Part shown: one piece after another, positions 3,812 through 42,412 of the stretch | How positions within the stretch are numbered: the first letter of the stretch is position 1 | Layout: the number at the start of each line of letters is the position of its first letter | Assembly: GCF_000003815.2 (NCBI RefSeq) | Contig: NC_049989.1 | Coordinates: forward strand, 7,588,195 to 7,652,194 | DNA length: 64,000 bases | Direction of reading: 5' to 3' | Source of the DNA: Branchiostoma floridae | Taxonomy: Eukaryota > Chordata > Leptocardii > Amphioxiformes > Branchiostomatidae | The notes under the pieces: model-generated | What the model saw: the letters and a program-made list of their open reading frames with translations, nothing else | Databases searched by the model: none | Told to the model about the DNA's origin: nothing | Program-made: the position numbers and the translations under genes

Positions 3812-3966
3812 GAACAGATACTGGTGCCATCAAGCTGTATGGGAGGCCGGGTGTGGAGATCTCGGCGGTGCATCGCGCCGTGCTGCCCGTCAAGAAGCTG
3901 CTCTTCCTCCCAGGACAGGGTCGCCTGCTCAGTCTGCTAGGCGACAACACAATACATCTATGGGAG
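3812..3966 (+). CDS. LLGL: LLGL exon: N-terminal WD40 blade
   Basis: The exon encodes 51 full codons beginning (G)TDTGAIKLYGRPGVE and ending DNTIHLWE. This matches the LGL-family segment that reads G-T-x-x-G-A-x-K-x-Y-G-x-P-G-V-E and later L-x-G-Q-G-R-L-L-S-L-L, with LPGQGRLLSLL seen here. The acceptor is TTATAG before 3812, entering with two bases of a Gly codon, and the donor is GTGAGC at 3967 in phase 0. The next exon opens with Ile-Asn-Pro, restoring the family's L-W-E-I. Tomosyn shares the WD40 fold, but the sequence and the downstream aPKC motif point to LGL proper. Confidence 0.88.
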
Positions 3967-6900
3967 GTGAGCGATGGCTTACGTTTTATTTACATCAACA
4001 ATATTAATGCGTACCCATGTTCCTTGTACGTGCAATATGCCAAAAACTTTAATCCCTTGGCTTTTCATTTAAAAATCGTTATTTCATAGCTTCAATGTTA
4101 ACTCGAAGGTATGTGTTCGTGGAACTCTAGTTTAGGCCTAACCTGGTCTTCATCAGGCTGTGATGAGCCGCTAATTATGTCCCCTTGAAACGTATACGTC
4201 GGTAATGACAACATCATGGAATACTAATGCTTTGATATTTTTCTTTTCCTCCAGATCAACCCACGAGACGAACTCCGGTCCATGCTGGAGGAAGTGAACG
4301 TGTTTGTTCCAGATGACAAGATAGGACGCATCTCGGCATGCTGTCTCCTCTCGTCCGGCAAGTTCCTACTGCTGGGTACCGAGGGAGGTAACGTGCATCT
4401 GATGGACGCCGTCAATTTCGTGCTTTCCGACCGGGTCGTCTCACAGGAAACCGCCATGCAGAATGTGCCCGACGACTACAAGGTTGATCCCGGCGCCGTG
4501 GTCGCCTTGGCACCCCACCCCATCACCCGCAGCAAGGTGCTGATTGGCTACTCCAGAGGTCTTATGGTCACGTGGGACGAAGAGCAGGACGGGACGTCGG
4601 AGACGATAGTAGGCAGCGAGCAGCTTGAATCCGTAGAGTGGTACAGAAATGGAGACAAGGTCATCAGCTCACACACAAATGGCACCTACTACATTTGGAG
4701 CCTCTCCGATACCTCCGCCCCAGAGCAAGGCCCCCTAACACCCTTCGGTCCCCCACCCTGCAGAGCGATCAGCAAAATAAGCGCCAAAACAACAAAAGAC
4801 GAGAACTTTTTCTTGTTTACCGGAGGACTTCCACGTGAACGGGACGACCGAGCTACACTTGTCGTGATGAAAGGTAGAGATAGCCAGGTTCTCGAAATTT
4901 CATCCCGCATAGTAGATTTTCCTTACATCCNNNNNNNNNNNNNNNNNNNNNNNNNNNNNNNNNNNNNNNNNNNNNNNNNNNNNNNNNNNNNNNNNNNNNN
5001 NNNNNNNNNNNNNNNNNNNNNNNNNNNNNNCTGATCCATGCCGAGGGATCTACTGGTCAGCGGACATGAAGATGGATCCATCAAGTTCTGGGACGTGTCG
5101 TCGGTGTCCATGCGAGCAATCTACCGCTGCAGTACGTCTGAAGTATTCGTGACCGGCCGAGAGCAGCAAGGGCAGCCCCTTTCTCCGAATAGCCAGGTTT
5201 TCGACAACCGGTTAAAGGACATAACGTACGTTGATGCCGACGCCCTCGAAAGTGGAAAGAGCGAGGAAGAACAGGGTTCGCAGACACCGGGGTCTCAAAA
5301 GACACCCCAGGAGGGACGCATGATATTCAAGTACACCGTCGAGGGAGAGACCAAAGAAGGCGTACCACCAATCCGTAAGATTGGTCTCTTTGACCCATTC
5401 AGCGACGACCCGCGACTGGCGGTTCAGCACATCGAACTGTGCCCGTCTACAGGCATCATGGCCGTGGGCGGCGCGTCCGGGCAGGTCGTCATCATGGAGA
5501 TGAGTCCTGTTGGTGAGGGGCAAAGTCAGGAGCTGGTTGCCTCAGCAGTTGACATAACAAGCGGTGTGGAAGGATATCAATGGAAGGGCAGTGGAAAATT
5601 GACCGCAAGGAGTGATGTTATAGCTTTCCCTGGCTTTCAGAGTAGGCAGCTGATTCAGTGCAACCCCGCTGCCCCCACAACGGCTCTAGCCTTGGAACCG
5701 AAGCTCGGCCTTGTCGCTGTTGGCACCATGCAAGGACTGGCACTATTTGACTACAGACAGAAGAGAGTGGTCAGCACCAGATGTACCATGACCCCCGAAG
5801 AAATAGCTGGTTCACTAGAACCGAGGAGTCAGCAGAGGAAGTCCCTGCGTGACTCCCTCCGCCGATCCATCCGCAAATTCGGTAAGGGGTCGAAGCGCAC
5901 ACCGTCGGCAGAAGACAGTACCGATACAGTCAATGACGATGCAGAGTTCAAAGCCGTCCGAGCCAGTCAAATAGCTGGCAGCACTATAAAATCTTTTGAA
6001 TTCAGTCCCATTGGCCTTAATGGAGACGAGGGCGGGTCCGCAACGCTCTTTGTCGGAACCAACTCTGGCAAAATCATGGCGTACGATGTCAAGGTGCCCC
6101 AGGGCGATGATATGAAGAGAATGGAAGACGAAGTGACGGCAGAGTACACCAAAGAAGTTCAGCTGCAGCACGGTGCACCGGTTATCCATTTGGCCCTCCT
6201 GGACGCCTCTGGACGGGTCATCACATTCGCGTCGGACGACGACTTGAAGGGTAAAGAAGGACAACAGCTTCTTGTTGTGTCCGAAGAAAAATTCAAGACG
6301 ATTGCCCTACCAACTATGAAGACACAGCAGAAGTACTGGCTCTCCCTCGAAGACGGCTGCCTGGTCCGCCGAGTCTCCCACATGAGCATGCCAGCCACAG
6401 AGGTCACAGAGGCCGAAAATTACGTCACCTGTATGACATCTGACGGTGAAGTCTGCGCCTTCCTGACTCCAGCCCTGAAGCAGGTCGCAGAGTTTGAAGT
6501 GACAACCAAGGAGAATGTCATTGGTACTAAACAATGTGCCTTGACCAACAAAGGCGAATGTAAGTTGATTCCATCAAGCTTTTCCCCATGGTACATTTTG
6601 TTATGAATCTATCAAGGGTCTGCCATTCATGTTGAATCACTACACATTGGACGTTAATTTGTTAGATTGTTGCTTCTAATATGATATAAGCTTAACTGAT
6701 ATCTGTGGACCGGTAGATCTAGGGAGACATTGTAGTCGTTGATGATTTCTACTGGTCACAAATGATCCATTTTTGCGTTATATAGGTTTCTATTTCCTAT
6801 CCCCGTCCGAGATGCAACGGTGCGCCATCACACCGAAGTATGTCGTCGAGCCAAAATGCACCTTCCGCATCGCCGAGGGAGACCGCCCACCACGGACAAC

Positions 6901-9900
6901 AACATGGAGACCAGAGGACATCGAGCTGCCCGTTGTAGGCTCTCCAATAGGTATGATGAAAGGCGCTGTCGAATCTGTCGGGGATAAGGTTAAAGGTGCG
7001 ACAGGGAAAGTAGAAGAAGGAGCAAAAGAAGCTAAGAGTAAAGTAGCTGATACAGCTAAGAGTGTTGAGGAGAAGGTGGAGGAAAGTGCAAAGCAGGCTA
7101 AGGAAAAGACAGAAGAGAAAGCTAAAGAAGTTAAGGAAAGCGTAGAAAGTGCGGCTGAAGCCGCAAAGGACAAGGCAGAGCATGCTGCAGGGGCTGCAAA
7201 AGAAAAGGCAGAAGACATGGCTAAGGCTGGCAAAGAAAAGGCAGAGCAAGCAGTTGAAGCAGTAGAGCAAAAGGTAGAGCATGTTGCAAAAGATGTAACT
7301 GAAGCAGCTATGGGGGCTAAAGAGAGCTTAGCGGCAAAGCTGAAGGGTGCTGAAGCTAAAGCTGACGATGTAGCTAAAGAAGCAGAAGGGGTAGCAGATG
7401 AAGCAGCTGCGGAAGTAGAACAATCTGTTAAGAGCGCAGAAGCTATTGCTGAGGGTGCCAAGTCTGAAGTTGAGGGCACTGTTAATGATGCTTTGGAAGA
7501 TGCTAAAGATGCTTCTAAAGCTGCAGAAGCCGCAGCGGAAGCAGCTAAAGAAGATGCAGAGGCAAAAGTTGAGGGTGCAGTAGCCAGTGCCGAAGCAGTT
7601 GCTAAGGATTCTGTCGATAAGGTGGAGGGAACTGTAAAACAAGTAGAAGACGAGGCAGAGGCAGCAGTAGAAAGTGCTGCAGTGGCTGTAGAGAATGCTG
7701 AAGAAAAGTTGGAAGAATCCTCCAAGGAAGCTCAGGCTAGTGTGCAGGGAGCAGTAGAAAACGCACAGGCTCAGGTGGATGGCGTGGTGGATGGTGCAGA
7801 TAGTGCAGTCGGAGCTGTGACCACCAAAGTGGAGACCTTGGTGCAGGATGGGGAAACCGTGGTGCAAAAAACCGTTACGGTGACCCAGCATACCGTGCAC
7901 GAGGTGGTGGATGGTGTATCAGGTAGGAATGGGGACCTCAGGTTTGGGCTTCCTATAACAACATTTGCTTTGGCTGTACCCAAAAAATTGAAGTCTTTTC
8001 TAAACATGTTGCAATTCTTTACTAACCACGTCATGGAAGGTTTCAAACCTGCGGTCACATCCTAATAGATTTGGGAATGTTTTGTAACGTTTATGAATTT
8101 ACTAATCGACTTTTTTCCGTGCCTCCGAAGCGTGCCTAGGAAATGTTCTGAGGCGTGTATATTATATTGTCCCCAACCACAGGCCGCTACGAGGTGGATC
8201 TTGAATCATCTGGAATGGAAGTCGACGGTGAGGCACTTGAGGTTAGTACGCCAAAGGGTAGGTTTTCGAGCAGAGTTCGGGGGATCGACGTAAGCCCAAA
8301 CCTTGGCAGATGGAAATTTGGAGGAAGGGAAAAAGACATAAGAGGAGAAGTTGCACTACCCGAAGCAGAGCACATTATCGGTGCTCGTCGTGAACTCTAC
8401 ATTGAAGAAGCCGACCTTGAGATTGAAGCTCCAGAACCGAAGAAGGGGCGTTTTAATGGCCTGAAAGGCCCTAAGTTTGGTTTTGGACGACGATCGTACG
8501 ACGTGCATGGAGCCGAAATGGAATTGAAAGGACAAGAGGGATCCTTCAGTGGACCAGATATCGAAATGCCAGAAGTTGAGGGGCCAGATATGAACGTCGA
8601 AGGCCCAGATGCAAAAGGTGGATTTAAATTCAAAGGGCCTAAATTCGGCAAGCCAGACATTGACATCAAAGGGCCAAAATTCAAAGGACCCGGCTGGAAG
8701 ATGCCTTCGTTCGGAGGAAAGGCGGACGTAGATCTTCCAGACGCAGAAGTTGAAGGACCCGATGTGAAACTAGAAAGACCTGATGTCGACTTGGAGGCAC
8801 CGGATTTGGATGTAGAGGGTCCCGACGTTAAGGAAGGTTTCAGATTGAAGGGACCTAGTTTCGGCAAACCGGACATTGATATCAAGGGACCAAAATTCAA
8901 AGGACCCGGCTGGAAGATGCCTTCGTTCGGAGGAAAGGCAGACGTCGATCTTCCAGACGCAGAAGTTGAAGGACCAAACGTGAAGCTAGAAGGACCTGAT
9001 GTGGACTTGGAGGGTCCTGATGTTGATGTAGAAGGCCCGGATGTGAAAGGTGGATTTAAATTTAAAGGGCCTAAATTTGGCAAGCCAGACTTTGACATCA
9101 AAGGACCCAAATTCAAAGGCCCCGGCTGGAAGATGCCTTCGTTCGGAGGAAAGGCAGACGTAGATCTTCCAGACGCAGAAGTTGAAGGACCAAACGTGAA
9201 GCTAGAAGGACCTGATGTGGACTTGGAGGCTCCTGATGTTGATGTAGAAGGCCCGGATGTGAAAGGTGGATTTAAATTTAAAGGGCCTAAATTTGGAAAG
9301 CCTGACTTTGACATCAAAGGGCCGAATTGGAAGATGCCTTCATTCGGAGGTAAGGCAGACGTAGATCTTCCAGACGCAGAAGTTGAAGGACCAAACGTGG
9401 AACTGGAAGGACCTGATGTCGACTTGGAGGGTCCTGATGTAGATCTTGAGGGCCCAGATGTCAAAGGAGGATTCAAGTTCAAAGGACCGAAGTTTGGCAA
9501 ACCAAAATTTAAGATGCCCAAGTTCGGTGGGAAGGCAGACGTAGATCTTCCTGAGGCTGAAGTTGAAGGACCAAACGTGGAACTAGAAGGACCTGATGTC
9601 GACTCGGAGGGTCCTGATGTCGATGTAGAAGGCCCGGATGTGAAAGGTGGATTCAAATTCAAAGGGCCTAAATTTGGCAAGCCAGACATTGACATCAAGG
9701 CCCCCAAATTCAAAGGGCCCGGCTGGAAGATGCCTTCGTTCGGAGGTAAGGCAGACGTAGATCTTCCAGACGCAGAAGTCGAAGGACCAAACGTGGAACT
9801 AGAAGGACCCGATGTGGACTTGGTCGGTCCTGATGTCGATGTAGAAGGCCCGGATGTGAAAGGCGGATTCAAATTGAAGGGGCCTAAATTTGGGAAGCCT

Positions 9901-12900
9901 GACTTTGACATCAAAGGACCGAATTGGAAGATGCCTTCGTTCGGAGGAAAGGCGGACGGAAAGCTTCCTGATGCAGAAGTCGAGGGACCTGTTATGAAGG
10001 TAGAGGGGCCTGATGTCGACTTGGAAAGGCCGGATATCGATGTAGATGGTCCAGACATGAAGGGAGGATTCAAATTTAAAGGCCCCAAGTTTGGGACACC
10101 TGATTTTGACATCAAAGGACCAAATTGGAAGATGCCTTCGTTCGGAGGAAAGGCGGACGTGGATCTTCCAGAGGCAGAGGTCGAAGGCCCAGATGTGAAA
10201 CTAGAAGGACCCGATGTCGAGATGGAGGGACCAGATGTTGATGGTGGACTAAAAATCAGAGGCCCCAAATTCGGTAAACCTGACTTTGACATTAAGGCAC
10301 CCAAATTCAAAGGACCCGGCTGGAAGATGCCTTCGTTCGGAGGAAAGGCGGACGTGGATCTTCCAGAGGCAGAGGTCGAAGGACCAAATGTGAAACTAGA
10401 AGGACCTGATGTGGACTTGGAGGCACCGGATTTGGACGTAGAGGGTCCCGACGCTAAGGGAGGCTTCAAATTGAAGGGGCCTAAATTCGGCAAACCGGAC
10501 ATAGATATCAAGGCCCCCAAATTCAAAGGCCCCGGCTGGAAGATGCCTTCGTTCGGAGGAAAGGCAGACGTAGATCTTCCAGACGCAGAAGTCGAAGGAC
10601 CAGATGTGAAACTAGAAGGACCTGATGTCGACTTGGAGGGTCCTGATGTTGATGTAGAAGGCCCGGATGTGAAAGGTGGATTCAAATTTAAAGGGCCTAA
10701 ATTTGGGAAGCCAGACTTTGACATCAAAGGACCGAATTGGAAGATGCCTTCATTCGGAGGTAAGGCAGACGTAGATCTTCCAGACGCAGAAGTCGAAGGA
10801 CCAGATGTGAAACTAGAAGGACCTGATGTCGACTTGGAGGGTCCTGATGTTGATGTAGAAGGCCCGGATGTGAAAGGTGGATTCAAATTTAAAGGGCCTA
10901 AATTTGGGAAGCCTGACTTTGACATCAAAGGACCGAATTGGAAGATGCCTTCATTTGGAGGAAAGGCGGACGTAGATCTTGCTGACGCAGACATCGAAGG
11001 GCCAGACGTCAAGCTTGAAGGGCCGGATGTCGATGTTGAAGGGCCTGATGTTGAAGGTGGACTCAAGCTTAAAGGTCCAAAATTCGGTAAACCTGACTTT
11101 GACATCAAGGCGCCAAAATTCAAAGGTCCCGGCTGGAAGATGCCTTCGTTCGGAGGAAAGGCGGACGTAGATCTTCCAGATGCAGAAGTTGAAGGACCAG
11201 ATGTGGAACTAGAAGGACCCGATGTCGATTTGGAGGGTCCTGATGTAGATCTTGAGAGCCCAGATGCCAAAGGAGGATTCAAGTTCAAAGGACCGAAGTT
11301 TGGCAAACCAAAATTTAAGATGCCCAAGTTCGGTGGGAAGGCAGACGTCGATCTTCCTGATGCTGAAATCGAGGGACCTGACGTCAACCTGGAGACACCA
11401 GATGTAGAGGGTCCCGATGTCAAGGGAGGATTTAAGTTGAAGGGCCCTAAGTTCGACTCACCGGAAATTGATATCAAGGGACCCAAATTTAAAGGTCCCG
11501 GCTGGAAGATGCCTTCGTTCGGAGGAAAGGCAGACGTAGATCTTCCAGACGCAGAAGTCGAAGGACCAAACGTGGAACTGGAAAGACCTGATGTCGACTT
11601 GGAGGGTCCTGATGTTGATGTAGAAGGCCCGGATGTGAAAGGTGGATTCAAATTGAAGGGGCCTAAATTCGGCAAGCCTGACTTTGACATCAAAGGGCCG
11701 AAATTTAGAGGACCCGACTGGAAGATGCCGAAGTTTGGCGGAAAGGCAGACGTAGATCTGCCCGAGGCTCAGCTAGAAGGGCCCGATGTAAAATTGGAAG
11801 GACCTGACGTTGACTTAGAAGGACCGGATATCAATTTAGGAAGTCCCGATGCGAAGGGAGGATTTAAGTGGAAAGGTCCAAAATTTGGGAAGCCCGATTT
11901 CCACATGAAGAAGCCCACATTCAAATCGCCGTCATTCAGATGGAAAGGCAAGAAAGTCAAGTCACCTTCTGTCGAGATCGATGCCCCATCAGCAGAAATA
12001 GGAGCCTTGAATCTGGAAACACCAGGCCTTGACATTAATGCACCGAAAGTTAGCGGTGACGTTCCCGACGTCGAGCTGGAAAGTCCTGGATTTAAGGGTA
12101 AATCTATGACACTAGGATCCCCAGATCTAGAGCTGGAAGGACCAACGCTGAAATCGCCCTCCTGGTTTGACAGAATGAAAGCAAAGTTCCGAGGCTCAGG
12201 GCGATTCTCCGGACCAGATTTCAATGGTCCGGAAGCGAAATTCAGGACACCTTCAGGAAACCTGGAGGGACCAGATGTGACAATTAACTCACCAGATATG
12301 AACCTGGAAGGTCCAGATCTTGATATCGATTCTCCAGACCTGGATGTGAAAGGGCCAGACGTTGACCTGAAGGGCCCGAAAATGAAAGGACCAAAATTTA
12401 GGTTTGGAAAGCCAAAATTCAAATCACCAGACTTTCACATGAAGGGACCCAACCTAAAAGGACCCTCCTTTGGTGGTCGTCTTTCTGGTGAATTCGAACC
12501 ACCAAATGTTGGAGGTGATGTCGACATAGGCATAGCGGAAGCAGAGGTCTTGGTACCAGACGCAGAGATTCCAGACTGGGACGTAAACGTCGAAGGACCA
12601 GAGGTTGAAGGCGGTCTTTCAGGAAAATTCAAGTCTCCAAAACTTAAAGGCCCAGACTTTGATGTGGACGGTCCGGATATTGATGGGAAGGTCAAAGGCC
12701 CAAAGTTCCACATGCCACACTTAAAAATGCCAAAGTTCAAGTCTCCGAAATTCGGCGGGAAGGCGAACATCGACGTTCCTGAGGGAGAAGTGGAAGGTCC
12801 CGATGTAAACATTGACGTTGATGCGCCTGATGTGGACATTGAAGGTCCGGACGTCAAAGGCAAAAAATGGAAGAGGCCAAAATTCAAAGGTCCAGATATT

Positions 12901-15900
12901 CACATGCCCTCAGTGAAGATGCCCAAGTTTGGAGGAAAAGCTGACATTGACCTTCCAGAGGGGAATATAGAGGGTCCAGATGTCGATATCGATGGACCAG
13001 ACGTGAAGCTGAAGGGACCAGACGTGGACCTGGATGGACCAGAAGTGGATCTTGATCTTGAGGGACCTGATGTGAAAGGCGGAAGATTCAAAATGCCAAA
13101 ATTCAAAGGCCCAGATTTCAGCATGCCGAAGTTTGGCGGGAAAGCAGGTGTCGACCTACCAGAGGGTAAACTCGAGGGACCTAATGTTGATATTGAAGGA
13201 CCGGACGTCAATCTAGAAGGTCCTGAAGTTGATGTAGACCTTGAGGGACCAGACATGAAAGGCGGAAAATTCAAAATGCCCAAAATCAAAGGCCCAGACA
13301 TCAGCATGCCCTCAATGAAGATGCCCAAGTTTGGATTGAAAGGTGACGTTGACCTTCCAGAGGGTGAATTCGAGGGACCCAGTGTCGATCTTGAGGGACC
13401 AGATGTTAATGTTGAAGGTCCTGACGTTGACATAGACCTTGAGGGACCAGATGTTAAAGGTGGAAAATTCAAAATGCCTAAAATCAAGGGCCCAGATTTC
13501 AGCATGCCATCTATAGGGATGCCGAAATTCGGAGGAAAAGGAGACATCGACCTGCCAGAAGGCGAACTTAAAGGACCCAGTGTTGATGTGGAGGGACCAG
13601 ATGTCAATCTTGAAGGTCCTGACGTTGACGTTGACCTTGAGGGACCAAACGTGAAAGGTGGAAGATTCAAAATGCCGAAATTCAAGGGCCCAGACTTCAG
13701 CATGCCGTCCATAGGGATGCCGAAGTTTGGAGGAAAAGGTGACATTGACCTGCCAGAAGGCGAAGTTAGAGGACCCAGTGTTGATCTCGAGGGACCAGAT
13801 GTTAATGTTGAAGGTCCTGACGTTGACGTAGACCTTGAGGGGCCAGACGTAAAAGGAGGAAAATTCAAAATGCCGAAATTCAAGGGCCCAGATTTCAGCA
13901 TGCCGTCCATAGGGATGCCGAAATTTGGAGGAAAAGGAGACATTGACCTGCCAGAAGGCGAAGTTAGAGGACCCAGTGTTAATCTCGAGGGACCAGATGT
14001 CAATGTCGAGGGTCCTGACTTGGACGTAGATCTTGAGGGACCAGACGTGAAAGGCGGAAAATTCAAAATGCCGAAATTCAAAGGCCCGGATATCAGCATG
14101 CCGTCCATAGGAATGCCGAAATTCGGGATGAAAGGTGACGTTGACTTGCCAGAAGGTGAAGTCAGAGGCCCTGATGTCGATATTGAAGGGCCCGACGTCA
14201 ACATTAAGGGACCAGACGTGGACGTTGAAGGGCCGGATGTTGACCTTGAAGGACCTGACGTCAAAGGCGGGAAATTCAAAATGCCCAAAATCAAGGGCCC
14301 AGACTTCCACATGCCGTCGATGAAGATGCCGAAATTTGGTGGAAAAGGCGAGGTGGACCTTCCGGAAGGAGAGCTTGAAGGGCCCGACATCGGAGTGAGT
14401 GGGCCTGATGTTGATGTGCAGGGTCCGGAAATGAAAGGAAAAATAAAAGGCCCCAAAATCAAGGGTCCGGGCTTTCACCTACCCCATATGAAAATGCCGT
14501 CCTTTAGAAAACCTAAGTTTGGCGCTGATGTTGATCTACCGGAAGCCGAAGTTGAAGTACCTGATGTAAATCTGGAAGGACCGGATGTGGACGTCACGGG
14601 TCCTGACGTAAATCTCCATGGCCCTGACGTTGACTTGGAAGGCCCAGACGTTTCCGGTAAAATCAAGGGCCCCAAAATCAAGGGTCCAGGCTTTCACCTG
14701 CCTCACATGAAGATGCCATCCTGGAGAAAGCCCAAACTCGGAGGAAAGGGAAAGATAGACGTACCAGATGTAGAAGGTCCTGATGTGGACTGGGAGCTCC
14801 AGGGACCTGACGTGGATGTGGAAAAGCCAGATATCGATGTTAACGTTGGTGCACCTGATGTTGATGTCGAAGGTCCGGAAATGAAAGGAAAGTTCAAAGG
14901 ACCAAACATTAAGGGACCTAACTTTCACATGCCTCACTGGAAAATGCCGAAATTTAAGTCTCCCAAGTTTGGAGGAAAGGCGGACATCGACTTGCCCGAG
15001 GGAGAGGTAGAAGGGCCGGACATTAACGTGAAGGGCCCCGATGTTGACGTAGACATGGAAAGTCCTGAAATGAAAGGTGGAAAGTTCAACCTGCCCAAAT
15101 TCAAGGGACCAGATGTCAGCATGCCTTCAATGAAATTGCCTAAATTCGGTGGAAAGGCTGACATCGACCTCCCAGAAGGTGAAGTGAAAGGCCCAAATGT
15201 GGACTTGGAGGGCCCAGACGTCAATGTCGAAGGTCCAGACGTAGATCTTGACCTTGAGGGGCCAGACGTCAAAGGTGGAAGGTTCAAGATGCCGTCAATG
15301 AAAGGACCTGACATCAGCTTGCCGTCCATGAAGATGCCCAAGTTTGGAATGAAAGGCGGAAAAGCTGACCTTGACTTACCTGAAGGAGAGGTACACGGAC
15401 CATCCGTTGATCTGGAAGGTCCTGACATTGACGTGAATGCGCCAGACATGGACATCGAAGGCCCAGAGGTCAAAGGCGGAAGATTCAAAATGCCGAAAAT
15501 CAAGGGTCCAGATTTCAGCATGCCGTCAATAGGGATGCCGAAGTTTGGAGGAAAAGGAGACATTGACCTGCCAGAAGGAGAGGTCAGAGGACCCAACGTT
15601 GATGTAGAGGGCCCAGATGTTAACCTGAAGGGGCCAAGTGTTGACGTTGATGTCGATGCCCCTGATGTCGATATTGAAGGGCCTGACATGAAAGGAGGAA
15701 GATTCAAAATGCCCCATCTGAAGGGCCCTGATATCCACATGCCTTCCATGAAGATGCCGAAGTTCGGAATGAAAGGCGGAAAAGCTGACCTTGACTTACC
15801 TGAAGGAGAGGTACAAGGACCGTCCGTAGATCTGGAAGGTCCTGACATTGACGTGAATGCGCCAGACATAGACATAGAGGGCCCAGAGGTCAAAGGCGGA

Positions 15901-18900
15901 AGATTCAAAATGCCGAAAATCAAGGGTCCAGATTTCAGCATGCCGTCCATAGGGATGCCGAAGTTTGGAGGAAAAGCAGACATTGACCTGCCAGAAGGCG
16001 AAGTTAGAGGACCTAGTGTTGATCTCGAGGGACCAGATGTTAATGTTGAAGGTCCTGACGTTGACGTAGATCTTGAGGGGCCAGACGTAAAAGGAGGAAA
16101 ATTCAAAATGCCGAAATTTAAGGGCCCAGATTTCAGCATGCCGTCAATAGGGATGCCGAAATTTGGAGGAAAAGCAGACATCGACCTACCAGAAGGCGAA
16201 GTTAGAGGACCCAGTGTTGATCTCGAGGGACCAGATGTTAATGTTGAAGGTCCTGACGTTGACGTAGACCTTGAGGGGCCAGACGTAAAAGGCGGAAAAT
16301 TCAAAATGCCGAAATTCAAAGGCCCGGATATCAGCATGCCGTCCATAGGAATGCCGAAATTCGGGATGAAAGGTGACGTTGACTTGCCAGAAGGTGAAGT
16401 CAGAGGCCCTGATGTCGATATTGAAGGGCCCGACGTCAACATTAAGGGACCAGACGTGGACGTTGAAGGGCCGGATGTTGACCTTGAAGGACCTGACGTC
16501 AAAGGCGGGAAATTCAAAATGCCCAAAATCAAGGGCCCAGACTTCCACATGCCGTCGATGAAGATGCCGAAATTTGGTGGAAAAGGCGAGGTGGACCTTC
16601 CGGAAGGAGAGCTGAAAGGGCCTGACATCGGAGTGAGTGGACCTGATGTTGATGTGCAGGGTCCGGAAATGAAAGGAAAAATAAAAGGCCCAAAAATCAA
16701 GGGTCCGGGCTTTCACCTACCCCATATGAAAATGCCGTCCTTTAGAAAACCTAAGTTTGGCGCTGATGTTGATCTACCGGAAGCCGAAGTTGAAGTACCT
16801 GATGTAAATCTGGAAGGAACGGATGTGGACGTCACGGGTCCTGACGTAAATCTCCATGGCCCTGACGTTGACTTGGAAGGCCCAGACGTTTCCGGTAAAA
16901 TCAAGGGCCCCAAAATCAAGGGTCCAGGCTTTCACCTGCCTCACATGAAGATGCCGTCCTGGAGAAAGCCCAAACTCGGAGGAAAGGGAAAGATAGACGT
17001 ACCAGATGTAGAAGGTCCTGATGTGGACTGGGAGCTCCAGGGACCTGACGTGTATGTGGAAAAGCCAGATATCGATGTTAACGTTGGTGCACCTGATGTT
17101 GATGTCGAAGGTCCGGAAATGAAAGGAAAGTTCAAAGGACCAAACATTAAGGGACCTAACTTTCACATGCCTCACTGGAAAATGCCGAAATTTAAGTCTC
17201 CCAAGTTTGGAGGAAAGGCGGACATCGACTTGCCCGAGGGAGAGGTAGAAGGGCCGGACATTAACGTGAAGGGCCCCGATGTTGACGTAGACATGGAAAG
17301 TCCTGAAATGAAAGGTGGAAAGTTCAACCTGCCCAAATTCAAGGGACCAGATGTCAGCATGCCTTCAATGAAATTGCCTAAATTCGGTGGAAAGGCTGAC
17401 ATCGACCTCCCAGAAGGTGAAGTGAAAGGCCCAAATGTGGACTTGGAGGGCCCAGACGTCAATGTCGAAGGTCCAGACGTAGATCTTGACCTAGAGGGGC
17501 CAGACGTTAACGGTGGAAGGTTCAAGATGCCGTCAATGAAAGGACCTGACATTAGCTTGCCGTCCATGAAGATGCCCAAGTTTGGAATGAAAGGCGGAAA
17601 AGCTGACCTTGACTTACCTGAAGGAGAGGTACAAGGACCGTCCGTAGATCTGGAAGGTCCTGACATTGACGTGAATGCGCCAGACATGGACATCGAAGGC
17701 CCAGAGGTCAAAGGCGGAAGATTCAAAATGCCGAAAATCAAGGGTCCAGATTTCAGCATGCCGTCAATAGGGATGCCGAAGTTTGGAGGAAAAGGAGACA
17801 TTGACCTGCCAGAAGGAGAGGTCAGAGGACCCAACGTTGATGTAGAGGGCCCAGATGTTAACCTGAAGGGGCCAAGTGTTGACGTTGGTGTCGATGCCCC
17901 TGATGTCGATATTGAAGGGCCTGACATGAAAGGAGGAAGATTCAAAATGCCCCATCTGAAGGGCCCTGATATCCACATGCCTTCCATGAAGATGCCGAGG
18001 TTCGGAATGAAAGGCGGAAAAGCTGACCTTGACTTACCTGAAGGAGAGGTACAAGGACCGTCCGTAGATCTGGAAGGTCCTGACATTGACTTGAATGCGC
18101 CAGACATAGACATAGAGGGCCCAGAGGTCAAAGGCGGAAGATTCAAAATGCCCCATCTAAAGGGCCCTGATATCCACATGCCTTCTATAAAGATGCCAAA
18201 GTTCGGAGGTAAAGCAGATGTTGATCTGCCAGAAGGTCACGTTGAGGGTCCTGATGTTGATGTAGACTTAAATGCTAAAGGTCCAGACGTGGACATAGAC
18301 GTAGAAGGGCCTGACGTGAAAGGTGGAAAATTCAAAGGACCCGACTTTCACATTGGGAAACCTAATATAAAAATGCCTTCCTTCAGGAAACCCCACTTTG
18401 GTGGTAAGGCCGATGTTGATCTGCCGGAAGGGGAACTGAAAGGACCGGAAGTTGACGTTGATGCTAGCCTTGAAGGACCTGACGTTGACATCGACAGTCC
18501 TGATTTGAAAGGAAAGATGTCAAGTCCCAAGTTCAAGGGACCAAGCTTTGATATGCCGTCTATGAAATTGCCATCCTTTGGCTGGAAACAGAAAGGGCCA
18601 AAAGCCAATATAGATCTTCCAGAAGCAGAGGTTCAGAGGCCAGAGGTCGGCATGGAAGGACCAGATGTAAACTTAAGGGGTCCAGACTTTGATGCATATG
18701 TTGAAGGCCCAGACGTAGATCTTGAAAGGGCAGGCATCAAGGGAAAAGTTAAATCACCAAAATTCAAAGGACCTGGCTTCNNNNNNNNNNNNNNNNNNNN
18801 NNNNNNNNNNNNNNNNNNNNNNNNNNNNNNNNNNNNNNNNNNNNNNNNNNNNNNNNNNNNNNNNNNNNNNNNNNNNNNNNCCACATGCCACACGTAAAGT

Positions 18901-21900
18901 TTCCTTCTCTGGGAAGAAAAGCAAGCCTCCTTCGGGGGAGATAGATGTGGATGTCAACGCTCCGAATGTGAGCGTAGAAGGCCCAGACGTTGACGTGGAA
19001 GGCCCAGAGGTAAAAGGAAAGATGAAATCTCCAAAATTCAAAGGTCCAGACTTCCACATGCCACACGTTAAGTTTCCTTCTCTGGGAAGAAAAGCAAGGC
19101 CTCCTTCAGGGGAGATAGATGTAGATGTGGATGCCCCGAATGTCAGTGTAGAAGGCCCAGACGTTGACGTGGAAGGCCCAGAGGTAAAAGGAAAGATGAA
19201 ATCTCCAAAATTCAAAGGTCCAGACTTCCATATGCCACACGTTAAGTTTCCTTCTCTGGGAAGAAAAGCAAGGCCCCCTTCAGGGGAGATAGATGTAGAT
19301 GTGGATGCCCCGAATGTCAGTGTAGAAGGCCCAGACGTTGAGGGCCCAGAGGTAAAAGGAAAGATGAAATCTCCTAAATTCAAAGGACCTGACTTCCACA
19401 TGCCACACATGAAATTTCCATCTTTTGGAAGAAAAGCAAGGCCTCCGTCGGGGGAGATAGATGTAGACGTCGAAGGCCCGGATGCTAGAATTGAAGGACC
19501 TGACGTCACGGGTCCAGAAGCTAGAGGCGGGATATCAGGGAAGTTCACGGGACCAAAGTTTAAAGGCCCGAAATTCGGCTTAGGAGCCAAGGGCCACGAC
19601 CTCGACGCGAACATAGATCTTCCTGAAGGAGAAGTAAGAGGTCCCAGTGCGGATCTAGAGGGCCTGGATGTCGACATCCAGGGACCACATACGGAAGGAT
19701 CTTGGAAATTTAAAGGACCCGATTTCAACTTCAAAAAACCTAAGTTTGGCTTCAGTTCTAAGTCTCCTGAGTTGAACGGTGAGGGTGATTTGCCAGAAGC
19801 ACACGTAAAAGGTCCCGACGTGAATATCAACGGAACCGGTGAACTGGAAGGACCGCACGCCAAGGGTGGACTTTCCGGTAGATTTGACGCACCAAAATTC
19901 AAGGGACCTTCATTTGGATTTAGCTCGAAAAGACCAAAAGGAGATCTGGAATCGCCAGACGCGGAACTTTCGGGTCCAGATGCACCGGACGTAGACGTCG
20001 AAGGGTCGAGAGGTGGCATACACATCCCGCGTTTCAGATTCGGGGCGAAAAAGCCTTCGACGGACGCCGACGTAGACGTAGCTGTAGGGGAGGTGCATGC
20101 TCCCGACGCGGAAATAAATTCACCAGACTGGAGAACGGACGTTGACGCACCTGAGGTTAAGGGTAGAGCCTCGGGACGTTTCGGGAAAGTTAAGGGATTC
20201 AAAGGACCAAAATTCGGAGGACTTAAAGTTAGTGGAAAGGGAGGGGATGTAGATACAGATGTAGATTATCCAGAGGGTTCTTCACCCAATGCGGACTTTG
20301 AGGGATCCGATGTAAGAGTTAGAGGGCCAAAGGCTAAGGGAGGCTTTTCGTACAGAATAAGAACACTTAAGGACGAGTTGAAAGATGCAGCACAGGCAGT
20401 TAAGGAAGGTCTAACAGGCGTGTCAGATGAGATCAAAGGTGGAGGAAGAACGGAAGGGTGGTATGGTGGTACATTAAGTGGAAACCTACAAAGTCCTGAA
20501 GGCGATGCCTCCGCCGCTAGGCCTCTTGCCATACCCGATGTCAGCGGGGAAGGGTCTGTCAAGACTTACAGAAGACCGGAGGCATCTCTGTCTGCGCCCG
20601 ACGCCAGCGCTGAGGGAGCGGCTGAGGGCTACAGCACCAGCGTGACGATCAAGAGCAGCCCCTCCAGATTCAGATCGTCCAAGCACCTCACCGTGGGAGG
20701 ACAGGTTGGTCTTAGAGACAGATAGTGACTGGTTATGGTGCTGGTGATTGAGGACAGAAAACGTTTCGGGTGATTTCCTGTGGCGACATTTCTAATCTTC
20801 ACAGTGACTTAGCCTCTCACTCTAGTACTCGCAACTGTAGGCTCCATTCTCGTGACCCATCAAGCAGATCTGCTCGTCTCCCCTGCAACTTTTTGTTGGG
20901 AGGACAGACGTGGCTGTAACGAGACAGATGTGCACTAACACTAACCTACATGTTAGGGTGGAATATATGGGAAGAGTAGTTTTTCTGGGAGAACGTCATC
21001 ATTCCACTTACAGTGATTCACCTCTTCATACAGTCATACAGTCTGTTTATTCAACATCAAATCTTCAAGTTGTCCTTCAGCTGTGCGATGGTCATACTGC
21101 CTGTAGACTAGCCCGTTTCGCGCGTGACTGATATGACTGCTGTGCAAAAGTTGCCACACAAGACTGCTACTTTCCTGTTGTAAAAAGGCTAATTGCTAAC
21201 ACCTCTCTACTATATCCAACTGTCACCATACCGACCTTACATCTGTGAAGAGCTGGTTTAGACTTACCTTCATGCCACCTGGATAGCAACGACTTCGCGA
21301 TCACATAACAAACAAAACGAACTAACTCCATTGAAGACATATGTGAACTATCTGCTTCCGGGTCACTGCTTACTCTCCTCTTGCGTCACTTCCTTCCTCC
21401 TTTTACTAGAATTAGTAGCTTCATCCACGAACTAAAATGGCGACCATGTCCATCTTCCGAAAAGTAAGTTTGCTCGATTGCTTCTTCACATGCTTGCTTC
21501 TCTGCTTTGCTTCTGATTCCATCGTATCGATTGTCATTGTTAGATCAAAGATTCAAATGCCCAGAAGTGTGGTGGACATTGCATGACGAACTAACTGAAG
21601 GCCATCTCACAATCCTGAGCACGCATGTGCAGCAATGTATTGTTGCACATGTGCACTCGAACTGTGAGATGACTTATGCCTTTGTTTTCTTGGCCTTGGA
21701 ACTAGCTTCTGTGCTATCACTGTAAAACCTTGCATGAGAAAGTCCTGTTGTATCGTTACATTCCCGGTCCTTGCATTTGTGTTCATTGTATTCCTTGATG
21801 TTCTAACTTCATCATTGTCATTTCTAACTTTCGTTGCCTCTTTGGTACTCTGTCCACATCACAACAGGACACAAAAACGACATATGTCTCGACCATAACC

Positions 21901-23067
21901 AAGACAACTAAGACCGTGTTGGTGGATGTTGAGGCTCAGGGTAAGGCAGCGGAAGAGGGGGCGAGCGATCTCCTCGCCGACATACAGGGCACCCTGGCAG
22001 CGGGCAGCGACTCGAAGGTAGAAGGGTCATATTGTAACTTCAAACACAGAACACAAGAAACTTTCTCTTTTCATCTTTCATCTTGTCATGTGTACACAGA
22101 ATAACCTATCTGTGCAACAGACTTACTTTCAATCGATGTTAACTTCAATGTACAGTACAACTAACTTGGGCAATCGATGAAAAACAAAGAGATTGATTGG
22201 ACAGTGCCCAGTTGACGTCATCTGACGTCACTAGAGTGTCTTAGACCGGTCACAAAAGTTCACATATAACATTGACGCGACGTCTGCTTACATTCTGGTT
22301 TGATTGCCCGATGGAGATCACTTTGATTAAAAGAGACCAATCATGGAGATTGAGTACATTGGTATCGGAAGCTTGGCACTGGCTTGTAGGTGGGCATTAT
22401 TGGAATCATCCATTTTAGGGTAGAATCGATGTGGGCTGTCTGGGGGCTTTCCAGAGGTCATGCCGGTGTGTCTAATAAATAGCCCCTCTCAAAGTGGAAC
22501 GCGCCGTAGTCATCACGTCTGCATGTAAGATTGATGAAGGGATTTTGAGAATTCCTTTTGTAAAAAAGTACATTCACCTCGGATAGAAGCTGGGTGTGTT
22601 TGGATATTTGAGGCAAAGGTATTGTGTGCGACCGTACTTGTGCGATGTTAGGTTATTCACAAACAGTTGCATAAATTTGTACCTTGAACACAATGTTGAA
22701 AGAATTGAAAAGAAGTAAAATTACATGGAAAATCTGTTTATTTTGGGAAAGCATCCTTGCCATATATCTGTGGATAGCCAAATGACCATGTAAGGCTTTC
22801 GACCATCAATTTCATAAAAATTCATAATGATGACTAGAAGATAGAAAAATAATTTCTCAATGAGTACACAACTAAAATGTGTGACTCATGCTGTGAATAT
22901 GAACCCTTGGGACGTTATGACGGTACCATTACTACATACCAGTCGTGTGAGTACCTTGTTACACCTGATCCCACCTGACGTCCCTTTTGTTGTTCTTTGT
23001 CGACCCGCAGGTGTCCGCGAGTGCGTCGTCCGAGGGGGTTGACGTCAGACTAAAGGGACCGGAATAA
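3812..23067 (+). CDS. LLGL: LLGL-AHNAK-like fusion gene (5'-partial, multi-exon)
   Basis: Proposed coding exons are 3812-3966, 4255-4930 (runs into a gap), about 5031-6559, 6786-7922, 8183-20704, 21868-22017 and 23011-23067. Every visible junction is GT-AG with compatible phase (0, 1, 1, 0, 0). The product would be an LGL WD40 scaffold followed by an Ala/Lys/Glu amphipathic repeat, about 4,170 residues of AHNAK-like repeats, and a short C-terminus: roughly 5,400 residues in this window alone. Known LGL proteins bind aPKC/PAR6 and syntaxins at the cell cortex, and AHNAK is a cortical and membrane-repair scaffold. I infer a giant cortical scaffold. Known LLGL proteins are only about 1,000 residues, so the C-terminal extension is the unusual part. 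Alternative: two genes whose transcripts are separate. This is disfavoured by the in-frame exon 6786-7922, the 260-bp intron after it, and the lack of a stop or polyA signal between the parts. Confidence 0.75.
4255..4930 (+). CDS. LLGL: LLGL exon: central WD40 region, runs into gap
   Basis: In-frame LGL sequence of about 225 residues. Family landmarks include LLLGTEGGNVHLMD, an S/N-V-P-D-D-Y-K segment (NVPDDYKVDPG), KVLIGYSRGLMVTWDEE, QLESVEW followed by VISSHTNGTYYIWSL, and FTGGLPRERDDRATL leading to SRIVDF, which matches the LGL S-R-I-I-D-F landmark. The acceptor is CTCCAG before 4255. The exon is cut by the N-run at 4931, so its true 3' end is not visible. By comparison with vertebrate LLGL, about 100 residues are missing between this part and the sequence after the gap. 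Confidence 0.88.
4931..5030. other. Assembly gap (100 N) inside LLGL
   Basis: A run of exactly 100 N, the conventional placeholder for a gap of unknown length. The LGL homology that should lie between SRIVDF and DLLVSGHEDG is about 100 residues, so the real gap is probably at least 300 bp and may include an intron. The TGA at 5032-5034, in the frame of the following exon, lies at the gap edge and is more likely intronic or edge sequence than a true stop. Confidence 0.9.
5031..6559 (+). CDS. LLGL: LLGL exon: second propeller and aPKC-site motif
   Basis: Open from about 5038 to a GTAAGT donor at 6560, with about 507 codons. LGL landmarks in order are DLLVSGHEDGSIKFWDVS, IRKIGLFDPFSDDPRLAVQHIELCP, GQVVIMEM, LGLVAVGTMQGLALFDYRQ, the basic motif KSLRDSLRRSIRKFGKG, ATLFVGTNSGKIMAYDV and VIGTKQCALTNKGE. 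In the basic motif, Ser codons at 5842, 5854 and 5866 are exactly four residues apart, the spacing of the aPKC-phosphorylated serines of Drosophila and vertebrate LGL. Phosphorylation there is known to release LGL from the cortex. The 5' boundary is uncertain because of the gap. Confidence 0.88.
6786..7922 (+). CDS. LLGL: Exon joining LGL C-terminus to LEA/apolipoprotein-like helical repeats
   Basis: The acceptor TATATAG ends at 6785, and the split codon gives C-FYFLSPSEMQR, the LGL C-terminal motif (family G-F/L-Y-L-I-S-P-S-E). VVEPKC follows. About 55 codons later, in the same uninterrupted frame, comes roughly 300 residues rich in Ala, Lys and Glu, built on loose 11-residue periods (for example AKEKAEDMAKAGKEKAEQAVE). 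Such periods form amphipathic helices in LEA group 3, perilipin and synuclein-type proteins. It ends in a Thr/Val-rich segment (VVQKTVTVTQHTVHEVVDGVSG) before a GTAGGA donor at 7923 (phase 1). The absence of an intron between the LGL and repeat parts is the strongest evidence for a true fusion. Reading past the donor gives 47 codons and a stop, which I take as intron. Confidence 0.8.
8183..20704 (+). CDS. Giant AHNAK-like repeat exon
   Basis: The acceptor CCACAG before 8183 accepts a phase-1 split Gly codon and reads GRYEVDLESSG. The exon has about 4,170 codons including a 100-N gap. Almost all of it is alternation of acidic strands (VEGPDVDLEGPDVDVEGPD) with basic ones (FKFKGPKFGKP, WKMPSFGGKADVDLP). 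This is the composition and cadence of AHNAK/desmoyokin central repeats (KMPKF, EGPDV, LKGPK). Unlike vertebrate AHNAK, no PDZ domain precedes it; the LGL module does. The last 120 codons leave the repeat (IRTLKDELKDAAQAVKEGL, Ser/Pro/Ala-rich tail). The donor is GTTGGT at 20705, phase 0. A single exon this long parallels the single giant repeat exon of AHNAK. There is one apparent frameshift near 18925. Confidence 0.82.
8560..11900 (+). repeat. AHNAK-like repeat block 1 (about 72-residue units)
   Basis: The codons for GWKMPSFGGKADVDLPDAEV recur about every 216 bp (near 8692, 8908 and 9124), with shortened units lacking PKFKGPG where NWKMPSFGG replaces it. About 15 units are visible. Each has a basic half (KGPKFGKPDFDIKGPKFKGPG) and an acidic half (VEGPDVxLEGPDVDLEGPDVDV). 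DNA identity between units is high, suggesting ongoing homogenisation. Confidence 0.85.
12740..18340 (+). repeat. AHNAK-like repeat block 2 (about 66-residue units)
   Basis: Units open GGKFKMPKxKGPDFSMPSIG and continue MPKFGGKGDIDLPEGE then VDLEGPDVNVEGPDVDVDLE, about 198 bp each. The block differs from block 1 by the SMPS and LPEGE signatures. Interspersed variants carry FHLPHMKMPSxRKPK. The block contains the 2,238-bp segmental duplication. Confidence 0.85.
13682..18158 (+). repeat. 2,238-bp tandem segmental duplication inside the repeat exon
   Basis: Sequence near 13.68-15.92 kb recurs 2,238 bp downstream at about 15.92-18.16 kb. For example, an identical 62-codon stretch of another frame lies at 14135 and 16373. 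2,238 is 746 codons, so the frame is kept. The copies differ by scattered substitutions, such as Asp to Tyr at about 17051 (gtggat to gtgtat) and Pro to Thr in EGPDVDV near 16820. Outer limits are approximate because flanking units are themselves similar. Confidence 0.8.
18781..18880. other. Assembly gap (100 N) inside AHNAK-like exon
   Basis: A 100-N placeholder in the middle of the repeat exon. The reading frame before it (codon starts congruent to 1 modulo 3) and just after it (0 modulo 3) differ, which is uninformative because the true gap length is unknown. Repeats are a typical cause of such a break. Confidence 0.9.
18881..19460 (+). repeat. AHNAK-like repeat block 3 (58-residue units)
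   Basis: Three to four units open KMKSPKFKGPDFHMPHVKFP and continue SLGRKARPPSGEIDVDVDAP with NVSVEGPDVDVEGPEVKG. The spacing is 174 bp (58 codons), seen at the CACGTTAAGTTTCC motif near 19064 and 19238. The first unit after the gap lacks one G near 18925 (gcaagcctcc against gcaaggcctcc in later units), shifting the frame. Confidence 0.8.
21437..21463 (+). CDS. Possible alternative first exon (MATMSIFRK)
   Basis: ATGGCGACCATG opens a 9-codon frame closing exactly at a consensus GTAAGT donor (21464). It would splice in phase 0 to the exon at 21868, giving a short product of about 77 residues that keeps only the C-terminal exons. Used as an internal exon from the CTAG acceptor at 21409, it would hit TAG in frame, so only a promoter-proximal use makes sense. 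Without transcript data this remains a candidate. Confidence 0.3.
21868..22017 (+). CDS. Penultimate coding exon of the fusion gene
   Basis: Exactly 50 codons between ACAACAG (acceptor) and GTAGAA (donor), phase 0 at both ends, matching the phase-0 donor at 20704. It reads DTKTTYVSTITKTTKTVLVD then VEAQGKAAEEGASDLLADIQ and ends GSDSK. The Thr/Val-rich opening resembles the Thr/Val segment before the repeats (7861-7922). No known domain was recognised. Confidence 0.6.
22213..22230. promoter_or_regulatory. Paired palindromic CRE-like sites
   Basis: Two perfect TGACGTCA octamers at 22213-22220 and 22223-22230, 10 bp apart centre to centre, about one helical turn, in the intron before the last exon. 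TGACGTCA is the full CREB/ATF consensus. Function is inferred only. Confidence 0.35.
23011..23067 (+). CDS. Terminal coding exon of the fusion gene
   Basis: Acceptor CCCGCAG, then VSASASSEGVDVRLKGPE and TAA at 23065-23067. The frame (phase 0) fits the donor at 22017, and the VDVRLKGPE ending uses the same vocabulary as the repeats (LKGP), which supports assignment to this gene. An AATAAA follows 38 bp after the stop. Confidence 0.65.
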   Translation: MSASASSEGVDVRLKGPE

Positions 23068-23105: not shown

Positions 23106-23111
23106 AAATAA
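23106..23111 (+). terminator. Polyadenylation signal AATAAA
   Basis: A canonical AATAAA lies 38 bp after the TAA of the fusion gene, implying a very short 3' UTR, unless the GTACAG sequence just before it is a donor of a UTR intron. Confidence 0.45.
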
Positions 23112-37453: not shown

Positions 37454-38557
37454 GGCGGTAGGTCGATTCGCGATTTTTTACCGGGAATATGCCGGGAAAG
37501 GAAATATGCCGGGAAAGGAATATACACCGGAAAGCTTGTACGGGCTAGGCGAAATCGGCTTCCCAGTAGGCCTGCTACTTGTCGCTATCTACAAACGCAA
37601 TAATGATTAAGAATGCCTTTCAGACGGCCAATTAATGTATTCGCGAGAAGTTATTCACACTGCCGCGAGAAGTAATTCACACTTCAACGTTAATAGTGCA
37701 CGGCCACTTCGAAGCGTGCCACAAACCTACGTAACGTTACCGGAAACCGTGCACTGTGAGACTGCCTGCCTTTGTCACTTCCAGAGTTACAATTATTGAT
37801 ACAACGGTTTGAATAATTGATACACGTGCAAAACTTACATTTCAGATCAGTGTAAAACATTTTTTCCAGTGGGTTTAAAACATACTTTCAGACACCATCG
37901 ATGATCCGACCAGCAATCTGAATGGGGAGGGGGGCGAGAGTTACGTAAAAAGACGGTCGCTCGATCTCGAAAAATACAAAAAACGATTTCCCACACGTAG
38001 TGCAAACAAGCCTTGCCTGATCAGCAACAAGGGCATGAAATGGCGAGATGACGATGACCATGGTGAGTTCTCTGGCAATCGACGGCAATATCTGATAGCA
38101 GAGCGACTTGCCTTGGCCTGTAGCAAGGCCAAGAAAACAATCATTGCCTTCGCAGACCGCAGCAACGGCCAGGGATTGTCCTTCCCTCAACTCGGGGAAG
38201 CTCTTTCGTACATGATGGGAAGTTTCAGCGGAGTTTTTCTACGGTAAGTACTCGTTTTCAAATGAGCCGTGTTTTGAAATGCGTGACCCGACGACCGTTA
38301 CAAAGTTACGGGTCATCGCGCGACGGGGCGTGTGCCGGGCTGCCAGTGCTGGACGCGTTCATGACGGGAAGTTCGCACATCCATACCAAATGGTGATAAG
38401 TGTTTTTAATAGGGCTTTGTAGATAGCGACAAGTAGCAGGCCTACTGGGAAGCCGATTTCGCCTAGCCCGTACAAGCTTTCCGGTGTATATTCCTTTCCC
38501 GGCATATTTCCTTTCCCGGCATATTCACGGTAAAAAATCGCGAATAGACCTACCGCC
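37454..38557. mobile_element. 1.1-kb element with 142-bp inverted termini
   Basis: The left arm (37454-37595) starts GGCGGTAGGTC and the right arm (38416-38557) is its reverse complement with about two mismatches. Both contain duplicated ATGCCGGGAAAGGAA. The interior carries a RecQ-like helicase fragment on the minus strand. No target duplication could be defined because a poly-G run abuts the left arm. The near-identity of the arms implies recent insertion or maintained selection for transposition. Confidence 0.8.
37888..38205 (-). pseudogene. RecQ-like helicase N-terminal fragment
   Basis: The minus-strand frame reads VRKSFPELREGQSLAVAAV, then CFLGLATGQGKSLCYQILPS and VIVISPFHALVADQ. This matches RecQ-family order: motif 0 (F-R-x-x-Q), Walker A (A/P-T-G-x-G-K-S-L-C-Y-Q) and motif Ia (V-V-I-S-P-L-x-A-L-x-x-D-Q). 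Homology ends after ADQ at 38017, where CAG-GCAAGG could be a GC donor. The rest to 37888 is unlike a helicase. There is no ATG in frame near the start and no DEAH or helicase C-terminal part in the window, so it is an exon or captured fragment inside a transposon and not a full gene. Its frame is uninterrupted over the conserved stretch. Confidence 0.7.
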
Positions 38558-42034: not shown

Positions 42035-42412
42035 AGGACTTTGGTCGTAATATTTTGGACTGGACAGTAGGACTCTAGGGGGTCGTAGTATTTTGGACTG
42101 GACTCGGGTTTGAAGCATTTGGACTGGACAGTAGGACTCTAGGGGTCATAGTATTTTGGACTTGGACTCAAGGGGTCGAAGCATTTGGACTGGACAGCTG
42201 GACTCTAGGGGTCGTAGTATTTTGAACTTGGACTCAAGGGGTCGAAGCATTTGGACTGGACAGTTGGACTCTAGGGGTCGTAGTATTTTGGACCTGGACT
42301 CTAGGGGTCAAAGCATTTGGACTGGACAGTAGGACTCTAGGGTTCGTAGTATTTTGGACCCGGACTCTAGGGGTCAAAGCATTTGGACTGGACAGCTGGA
42401 CTCTAGGGGTCG
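42035..42412 (+). repeat. Minisatellite, 66-bp unit
   Basis: About 5.5 units built from GGACTCTAGGGGTCGTAGTA, then TTTTGGACxTGGACTC and GGGGTCxAAGCATTTGGACT. GTCGTAGTAT-type starts fall at 42082, 42145, 42211, 42277 and 42343 (63-66-bp spacing). The core GGACTGGAC...GGACTCTAGGGGT is shared, in the same orientation, with the array at 31.7-32.2 kb. Confidence 0.85.

Follow-up and report, generated by a model that had tools for sequence, protein, structure and literature searches.

In vertebrates, LGL and AHNAK are separate proteins, both tied to the membrane-near cortex, and LLGL is a protein of about 1,000 amino acids (aa) with a short tail. To our knowledge, no LGL-AHNAK-type protein has been described; the same was stated in an earlier reading of the present DNA made from its letters alone (hereafter the sequence-only reading), and none was seen either in the accessible text of open-licence PubMed Central (PMC) papers on AHNAK together with LGL, LLGL or lancelets; an automatic annotation may exist. 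The stretch analyzed here (hereafter the window) comprises 64,000 nucleotides of the Branchiostoma floridae genome (C11:7588195-7652194, contig NC_049989.1, forward strand) and very probably harbors a chimeric protein-coding gene with at least seven exons, the first of which lies upstream of the window. Its predicted product of about 5,400 residues would consist of an LGL part, a helix and an AHNAK-like repeat.

As regards the closest described systems, the serines S655, S659 and S663 of Llgl1 lie in a membrane-binding loop together with R661 and F664, and their phosphorylation by aPKC-Par6 excludes Lgl from the apical domain, according to the accessible part of PMC11996676. AHNAK and AHNAK2 are described in the accessible sections of PMC10682155 as possessing an N-terminal PDZ domain, repeat units about 128 and 165 residues long, respectively, and extended C-terminal parts, with the AHNAK2 repeats being encoded by a giant single exon, and the tail of periaxin is characterized in the excerpted text of PMC7072810 as largely disordered. 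In the accessible part of a sea-cucumber phosphoproteome study (PMC6037860), AHNAK-like and LGL1-like peptides are assigned to separate unigenes; the former peptide shows that AHNAK-like is a name also given to proteins outside the chordates.

The exon borders, phases and splice sites of the lancelet gene were read from the genomic sequence, and its parts are the following.

C11:7577757-7577889 (outside the window), plus strand: exon 1, encoding MPFLKSKSLERSRARFGFTRAVEHGFPHRPSSMAYDPKLKLFAIG (MPFLKSK...FAIG), the last codon split
3812..3966, plus strand: exon 2, LGL (TDTGAIKLYGRPGVEISAVHRAVLPVKKLLFLPGQGRLLSLLGDNTIHLWE), placed by splice sites and frame; starts in phase 1, ends in phase 0
4255..6559, plus strand: exon 3, LGL, nearly the whole propeller region, placed by Pfam LLGL and Lgl_C and by LLGL1/LLGL2 in PDB
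5836-5898, plus strand: serine-rich basic loop within exon 3 (RKSLRDSLRRSIRKFGKGSKR)
6786..7922, plus strand: exon 4, the junction exon, with the C-terminal end of LGL (FYFLSPSEMQRC...) and then about 327 aa of helix in one frame
7923..8182, plus strand: intron of 260 bp between helix exon and repeat exon, GT-AG, containing no N and no AATAAA/ATTAAA
8183..20704, plus strand: exon 5, the giant AHNAK-like repeat exon of 12.5 kb; starts in phase 1, ends in phase 0
13617..18238 (outer ends approximate), plus strand: recent tandem duplication within the repeat exon, with a step of 2238 bp (746 codons) and 97% DNA identity
21868..22017, plus strand: exon 6 (DTKTTYVSTITKTTKTVLVDVEAQGKAAEEGASDLLADIQGTLAAGSDSK), phase 0-0
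23011..23067, plus strand: exon 7 (VSASASSEGVDVRLKGPE and stop), followed by a poly(A)-signal-like match at 23107

The donor of exon 1, located before GTGAGT, is in phase 1 and matches the phase-1 start of exon 2; intron 1 is about 14.1 kb long, and exon 1 thus lies upstream of 3812. From LGL to the repeat all the borders are GT-AG and the phases fit, being phase 0 at 3966/4255 and phase 1 at both 6559/6786 and 7922/8183. When joined, exons 1-7 give 5,400 codons including the terminal stop, with no internal stop: the 5′ part is open for 321 codons up to 4929, the part from 5035 to 18780 contains no stop in 4,420 codons, and from 18935 onward the only stop in 659 codons is the terminal one (this count excludes both gaps, 4931-5030 and 18781-18880, together with the bases at their right edges, up to 5034 and at 18881-18934). 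In the repeat exon, 3,532 codons at 8185-18780 are without a stop, whereas no open run exceeded 199 codons in any of 200 base shuffles. An AATAAA/ATTAAA is located at 23107, 40 bp past the final stop.

The sequence-only reading had assigned the span 3812-23067 to the gene, and its end agrees with that of exon 7, after two short 3′ exons, whereas its start has to be moved to exon 1, where the coding start lies about 14 kb upstream and outside the window. The exon proposed at 6786-7922, in which the LGL end continues into an Ala/Glu/Val/Lys helix, is recovered here, with the same frame staying open after FYFLSPSEMQR, and the phase-1 join at 7922/8183 over a 260-bp intron to a 12.5-kb repeat exon agrees in both borders and phases. 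A misassembly between 6559 and 8183 had been named as a risk, and that interval turned out to contain no N run.

The LGL part is recognized by Pfam LLGL (PF08366) with 58.1 bits (cut-off 22), although a gap cuts this domain, and by Lgl_C (PF08596) with 36.5 bits (cut-off 20). Human LLGL1 is the best PDB match for both halves, with E values of 2.5e-36 for 4255-4929 and 6.1e-78 for 5035-6558, and judging by the similarity to these PDB chains the LGL part would adopt a double beta-propeller fold. Exon 2 shows 57% identity over 54 aa with the presumed N-terminal sequence of human LLGL1. The C11 protein shares with human LLGL1 and LLGL2 (PDB 8r3y, 6n8p) both the LLGL and Lgl_C domains and the three-serine basic loop: an aPKC-type S-x3-S-x3-S arrangement in a basic segment is present (RKSLRDSLRRSIRKF), the serine spacing in the loop equals that of S655/S659/S663 in human Llgl1, and a by-eye reading finds R661 kept and F664 replaced by Ile. 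The C-terminal end is of the LSPSE type, which we take to be that of human LLGL as well. In contrast to LLGL1 and LLGL2, the C11 protein is diverged, its body is nearly intronless at the gene level, and it extends into the 327-aa helix and about 4,200 aa of repeats.

An ordinary, intron-rich LLGL gene is present on C13. A search of the genome (513 Mb in 431 contigs) with the residues of 5035-6558 returned six matches, one being the C11 locus itself and the other five being pieces of exons on C13. The C13 gene has at least 10 introns within the span corresponding to exon 3 (eight deduced from the spaces between tblastn pieces and two from exons recognized by eye, with part of the splice sites verified), compared to none in the readable part of C11 exon 3, and over one 74-residue stretch its score against LLGL1 is 60.7 bits versus 35.6 bits for C11. 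Its last exon starts at the same codon and in the same phase 1 as exon 4 of the C11 gene (FFLLSPSELQRC versus FYFLSPSEMQRC) and its tail is short and Pro/Glu-rich; none of the 58 repeat matches listed for the genome, a number that is a lower bound, is located on C13. As the scores, introns and terminal codon and phase compare in this way, the fused C11 copy is read as a diverged LGL paralogue, in which most of the body introns would have disappeared and the terminal intron would have been kept. A whole-gene retrocopy of LLGL was considered and rejected, since two 5′ introns are present and the terminal intron coincides with that of C13 in both codon and phase. Partial intron loss in C11 appears to fit better, with loss here being presumably the direction of change rather than gain in C13.

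The 327 residues following the LGL end are enriched in Ala, Glu, Val and Lys and have the pattern of an amphipathic helix, with a period of 3.64 residues and a power of 30.6 compared to at most 7.1 in 500 shuffles. In its length and composition the helix resembles those of amphipathic-helix apolipoproteins, and the junction exon is matched by Pfam Apolipoprotein (PF01442) with an E value of 2.1e-13 and 50.8 bits, which does not reach the curated cut-off of 90; the PDB match to apolipoprotein A-IV is weak (E = 0.002). Apart from staying under the Pfam cut-off, it differs from apolipoproteins in having an LGL domain on one side and a repeat on the other. A lipid-binding function may be suggested for it.

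In the giant exon, consecutive repeat units mostly lie 60-73 residues apart; single spacings of 51 and of 61 occur, as do a few longer, irregular stretches of 144 to 270. The repeat periodicity is strongest at lags of 72 and 66 and weaker at 132, and the composition is strongly biased, being Gly-Pro-Asp-Val-rich. The ratio of non-synonymous to synonymous substitutions (dN/dS), taken only from window pairs with protein identity above 60%, is 0.19 for 7 window pairs at the 72-residue lag, 0.09 for 12 such pairs at the 66-residue lag and 0.19 for the 746-codon duplication; in the two other frames, used as wrong-frame controls, non-synonymous differences exceed synonymous ones (pN > pS) in 6/6 tests. 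The repeats are under purifying selection (dN/dS 0.09-0.19), and a reading of the exon as a non-coding satellite was rejected, being contradicted by both the dN/dS values and the controls. A PDB search with the repeats gave no match up to E = 1.

The similarity to AHNAK is supported by a score of 283 between a presumed human AHNAK repeat sequence and the C11 repeat, residue shuffles reaching at most 91 and tripeptide shuffles at most 157 (100 of each). Against this reference the C11 repeat agrees in sequence type with the central AHNAK repeats, which are of the GPDVD/MPKF type. Alike between the C11 gene and AHNAK, AHNAK2 and periaxin are the giant exon and the alternation of basic/hydrophobic and GPDVD-type acidic repeats, and the AHNAK hallmark of one giant repeat exon is found at 8183-20704, with the splice sites taken from the sequence. 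The differences are that LGL stands in place of the N-terminal PDZ domain and that the units are mostly 60-73 aa long. No PDZ domain was detected by Pfam in exons 2-5 up to E = 0.1, nor up to E = 0.05 in the three plus-strand frames of 10 kb of intron 1 upstream of the window, and the C-terminal protein-binding regions of AHNAK were not recognized in the C11 protein. By its sequence the protein is AHNAK-like and not AHNAK, a label chosen because the N-terminus is LGL, the scanned parts contain no PDZ and the unit is shorter. The AHNAK-like repeat named in the sequence-only reading therefore holds as far as the score above all shuffles is concerned and falls short in the PDZ domain of the scanned parts and in the unit length. 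The best match of the presumed annexin A2/S100A10-binding peptide is weak, scoring 38 compared to a maximum of 33 in 200 shuffled peptides, none of which reaches it, and it has a repeat-type sequence rather than that of a C-terminal end.

The repeat may nevertheless not be AHNAK by descent, representing instead an independent Gly-Pro-Asp-Val-rich low-complexity repeat, and this explanation, which is compatible with the fusion, deserves serious consideration even if we rate it somewhat below an even chance. It gains from units mostly 60-73 aa long as opposed to about 128 in AHNAK and 165 in AHNAK2 (accessible part of PMC10682155), from the PDZ domain not found in the scanned parts, from the strong compositional bias and from a match over the repeats to the beta-helix model PF21930 (43.4 bits, cut-off 27), in which no single stretch is significant and which was not used because of that bias. 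It is contradicted by the score of the presumed AHNAK repeat against both kinds of shuffles, by the giant single repeat exon, as in AHNAK2 (same part of PMC10682155), and by the similarity of one repeat segment of the window to loci on C18, C15, C16, C6 and C4, which is above all 100 tripeptide shuffles in 5/5 cases.

Several observations weigh against a single intact fused gene. By eye, the donor sites at 7923 (gtagga) and 20705 (gttggt) seem weak, and exon 5, if left unspliced at 20704, would end the protein at 20723-20725; an in-frame ATG at 8215 could begin a separate product; and poly(A)-signal-like matches at 22326 and 22474 in the last intron make earlier ends possible there. An in-frame TGA also stands at 5032-5034, one base past the first gap, and immediately past the second gap the frame shifts by one base, judged against the neighboring repeat copies; since both touch gap edges, they are read as edge errors, the TGA perhaps marking a hidden intron end. 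Finally, an AlphaFold model of three repeat units (21/24 segments aligned) has a mean predicted local distance difference test (pLDDT) value of 41.4 and is uninformative; such a low value is compatible with disorder and proves nothing.

The seemingly weak donor at 7923 and the ATG at 8215 would be accommodated by two adjacent genes, of which one, comprising LGL and the helix, would end in the intron at the stop 8063-8065, up to which the frame is open past 7922, and the other, AHNAK-like, would start at or before that ATG. We consider this arrangement improbable: a motif search found no AATAAA/ATTAAA in 6560-8300 (nor in 20705-21870), the phase fits over the 260-bp intron, a promoter would have to sit inside this intron or the upstream exon, and the helix exon already unites LGL with non-LGL sequence in one open frame. 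Upstream of the last two exons, a candidate alternative first exon was noticed at 21437..21463 on the plus strand, consisting of MATMSIFRK and a GTAAGT donor that would join exon 6 in phase 0, which suggests that together with exons 6 and 7 it would give a short C-terminal isoform of about 77 aa.

An assembly artefact joining unrelated loci could be suspected from the two 100-N gaps within the gene (the only N runs in the window, at 4931-5030 and 18781-18880, the second one within the repeat exon) and from the faults at their right edges, and is highly improbable given that the sequence is N-free from 5031 to 18780, the splice signals and phases fit, the LGL end and the helix share one exon, and the own-genome search with LGL residues gave the C11 locus and C13 only. 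Hardly any weight is given either to a decaying LLGL duplicate beside a repeat, as would agree with the fast divergence from LLGL1 over the 74 aa and with the TGA and frame change, both of which touch gap edges while the remainder is open for thousands of codons, the LGL landmarks are kept and the repeats (the part to which the selection figures apply) are under purifying selection.

The fused gene is thus preferred, and it is likely that it corresponds as a whole to a diverged intron-poor LGL copy extended at its 3′ side by an amphipathic-helix domain and then by a giant AHNAK-like repeat exon, the product serving as an aPKC-gated membrane-cortex scaffold. The chimeric gene is probably functional, and as far as genomic sequence goes the case for it is strong. 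For the mechanism taken separately, the chances seem about equal either way: the LGL propeller and the basic loop would localize the protein to the basolateral cortex as long as aPKC does not phosphorylate it, the long junction helix would lie on lipid, and the repeat of about 4,200 residues, probably unfolded, would form a long flexible cortical tether or scaffold, so that the product would act as an aPKC-gated membrane-cortex organizer alongside the ordinary LLGL. The aPKC-dependent polarity could in this way be coupled to an annexin-type platform, with annexin/S100 binding being weakly suggested by the one weak match to the presumed binding peptide. A natural LGL-AHNAK-like fusion suggests that LGL and AHNAK can act as one unit and offers a testable partner hypothesis for vertebrate cells.

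AHNAK-like repeats are also found on C18, C15, C16, C6 and C4, and C1 (with stops inside) and C3 carry weaker matches. A recognizable domain upstream of the repeats on the same strand is present in 3/5 of the loci examined (C18, C15, C16, C6 and C4). At the C15 locus (7952001-7962000; 7960448-7963114), EGF and fn3 exons come first, then a transmembrane helix, GKIAAGIIGGALFLCALLPLLYY, then a basic juxtamembrane stretch and finally AHNAK-like repeats. Read by eye, the junction leading into KRGGGKKK and the repeats fits in phase 2; the locus may encode a receptor whose cytoplasmic tail is AHNAK-like. On the minus strand of C16:18551001-18561000, a 233-codon AHNAK-like frame is preceded by two BAR exon pieces, one scoring 28.6 bits and the other 17.2 (cut-off 28.5). 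At C6:9953001-9963000, a CARD exon (Pfam 4.7e-11) is located upstream of a 535-codon AHNAK-like frame, and a further frame of similar look is situated at C6:9959482-9959727. Another very large AHNAK-like frame, of up to 4,055 codons, occupies C18:17899094-17918444. No Pfam domain was found in the readable 14 kb upstream of it (17880001 to about 17885646 being N), nor upstream of the C4 repeats.

With repeats located 3′ of fn3/transmembrane, BAR and CARD exons, the LGL-repeat fusion may not be unique. It may tentatively be proposed, with somewhat less than even confidence, that AHNAK-type repeats are a reusable cortical tail, which would have been joined separately to LGL, an EGF/fn3 transmembrane receptor, BAR and CARD as a giant flexible tether; the PDZ-AHNAK/periaxin of vertebrates would then represent one combination that survived from an older mix-and-match set, and the aPKC-gated LGL another. 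Since several combinations may coexist in the B. floridae genome, with the unfused LLGL as an internal control, the origin of AHNAK-type repeats would be traceable in it.

Elsewhere in the window, a single-exon frame resembling a membrane protein with leucine-rich repeats and immunoglobulin domains is located at 45240-46784 (Pfam LRR_8 5.7e-30, I-set 3.6e-12). An isolated helicase fragment on the minus strand at 37888-38238 (Pfam DEAD 9.4e-8), RecQ-like by eye, perhaps derives from a mobile element, and a minisatellite with a 66-bp unit, 5.5 copies and 92% matches is found at 42054-42412.

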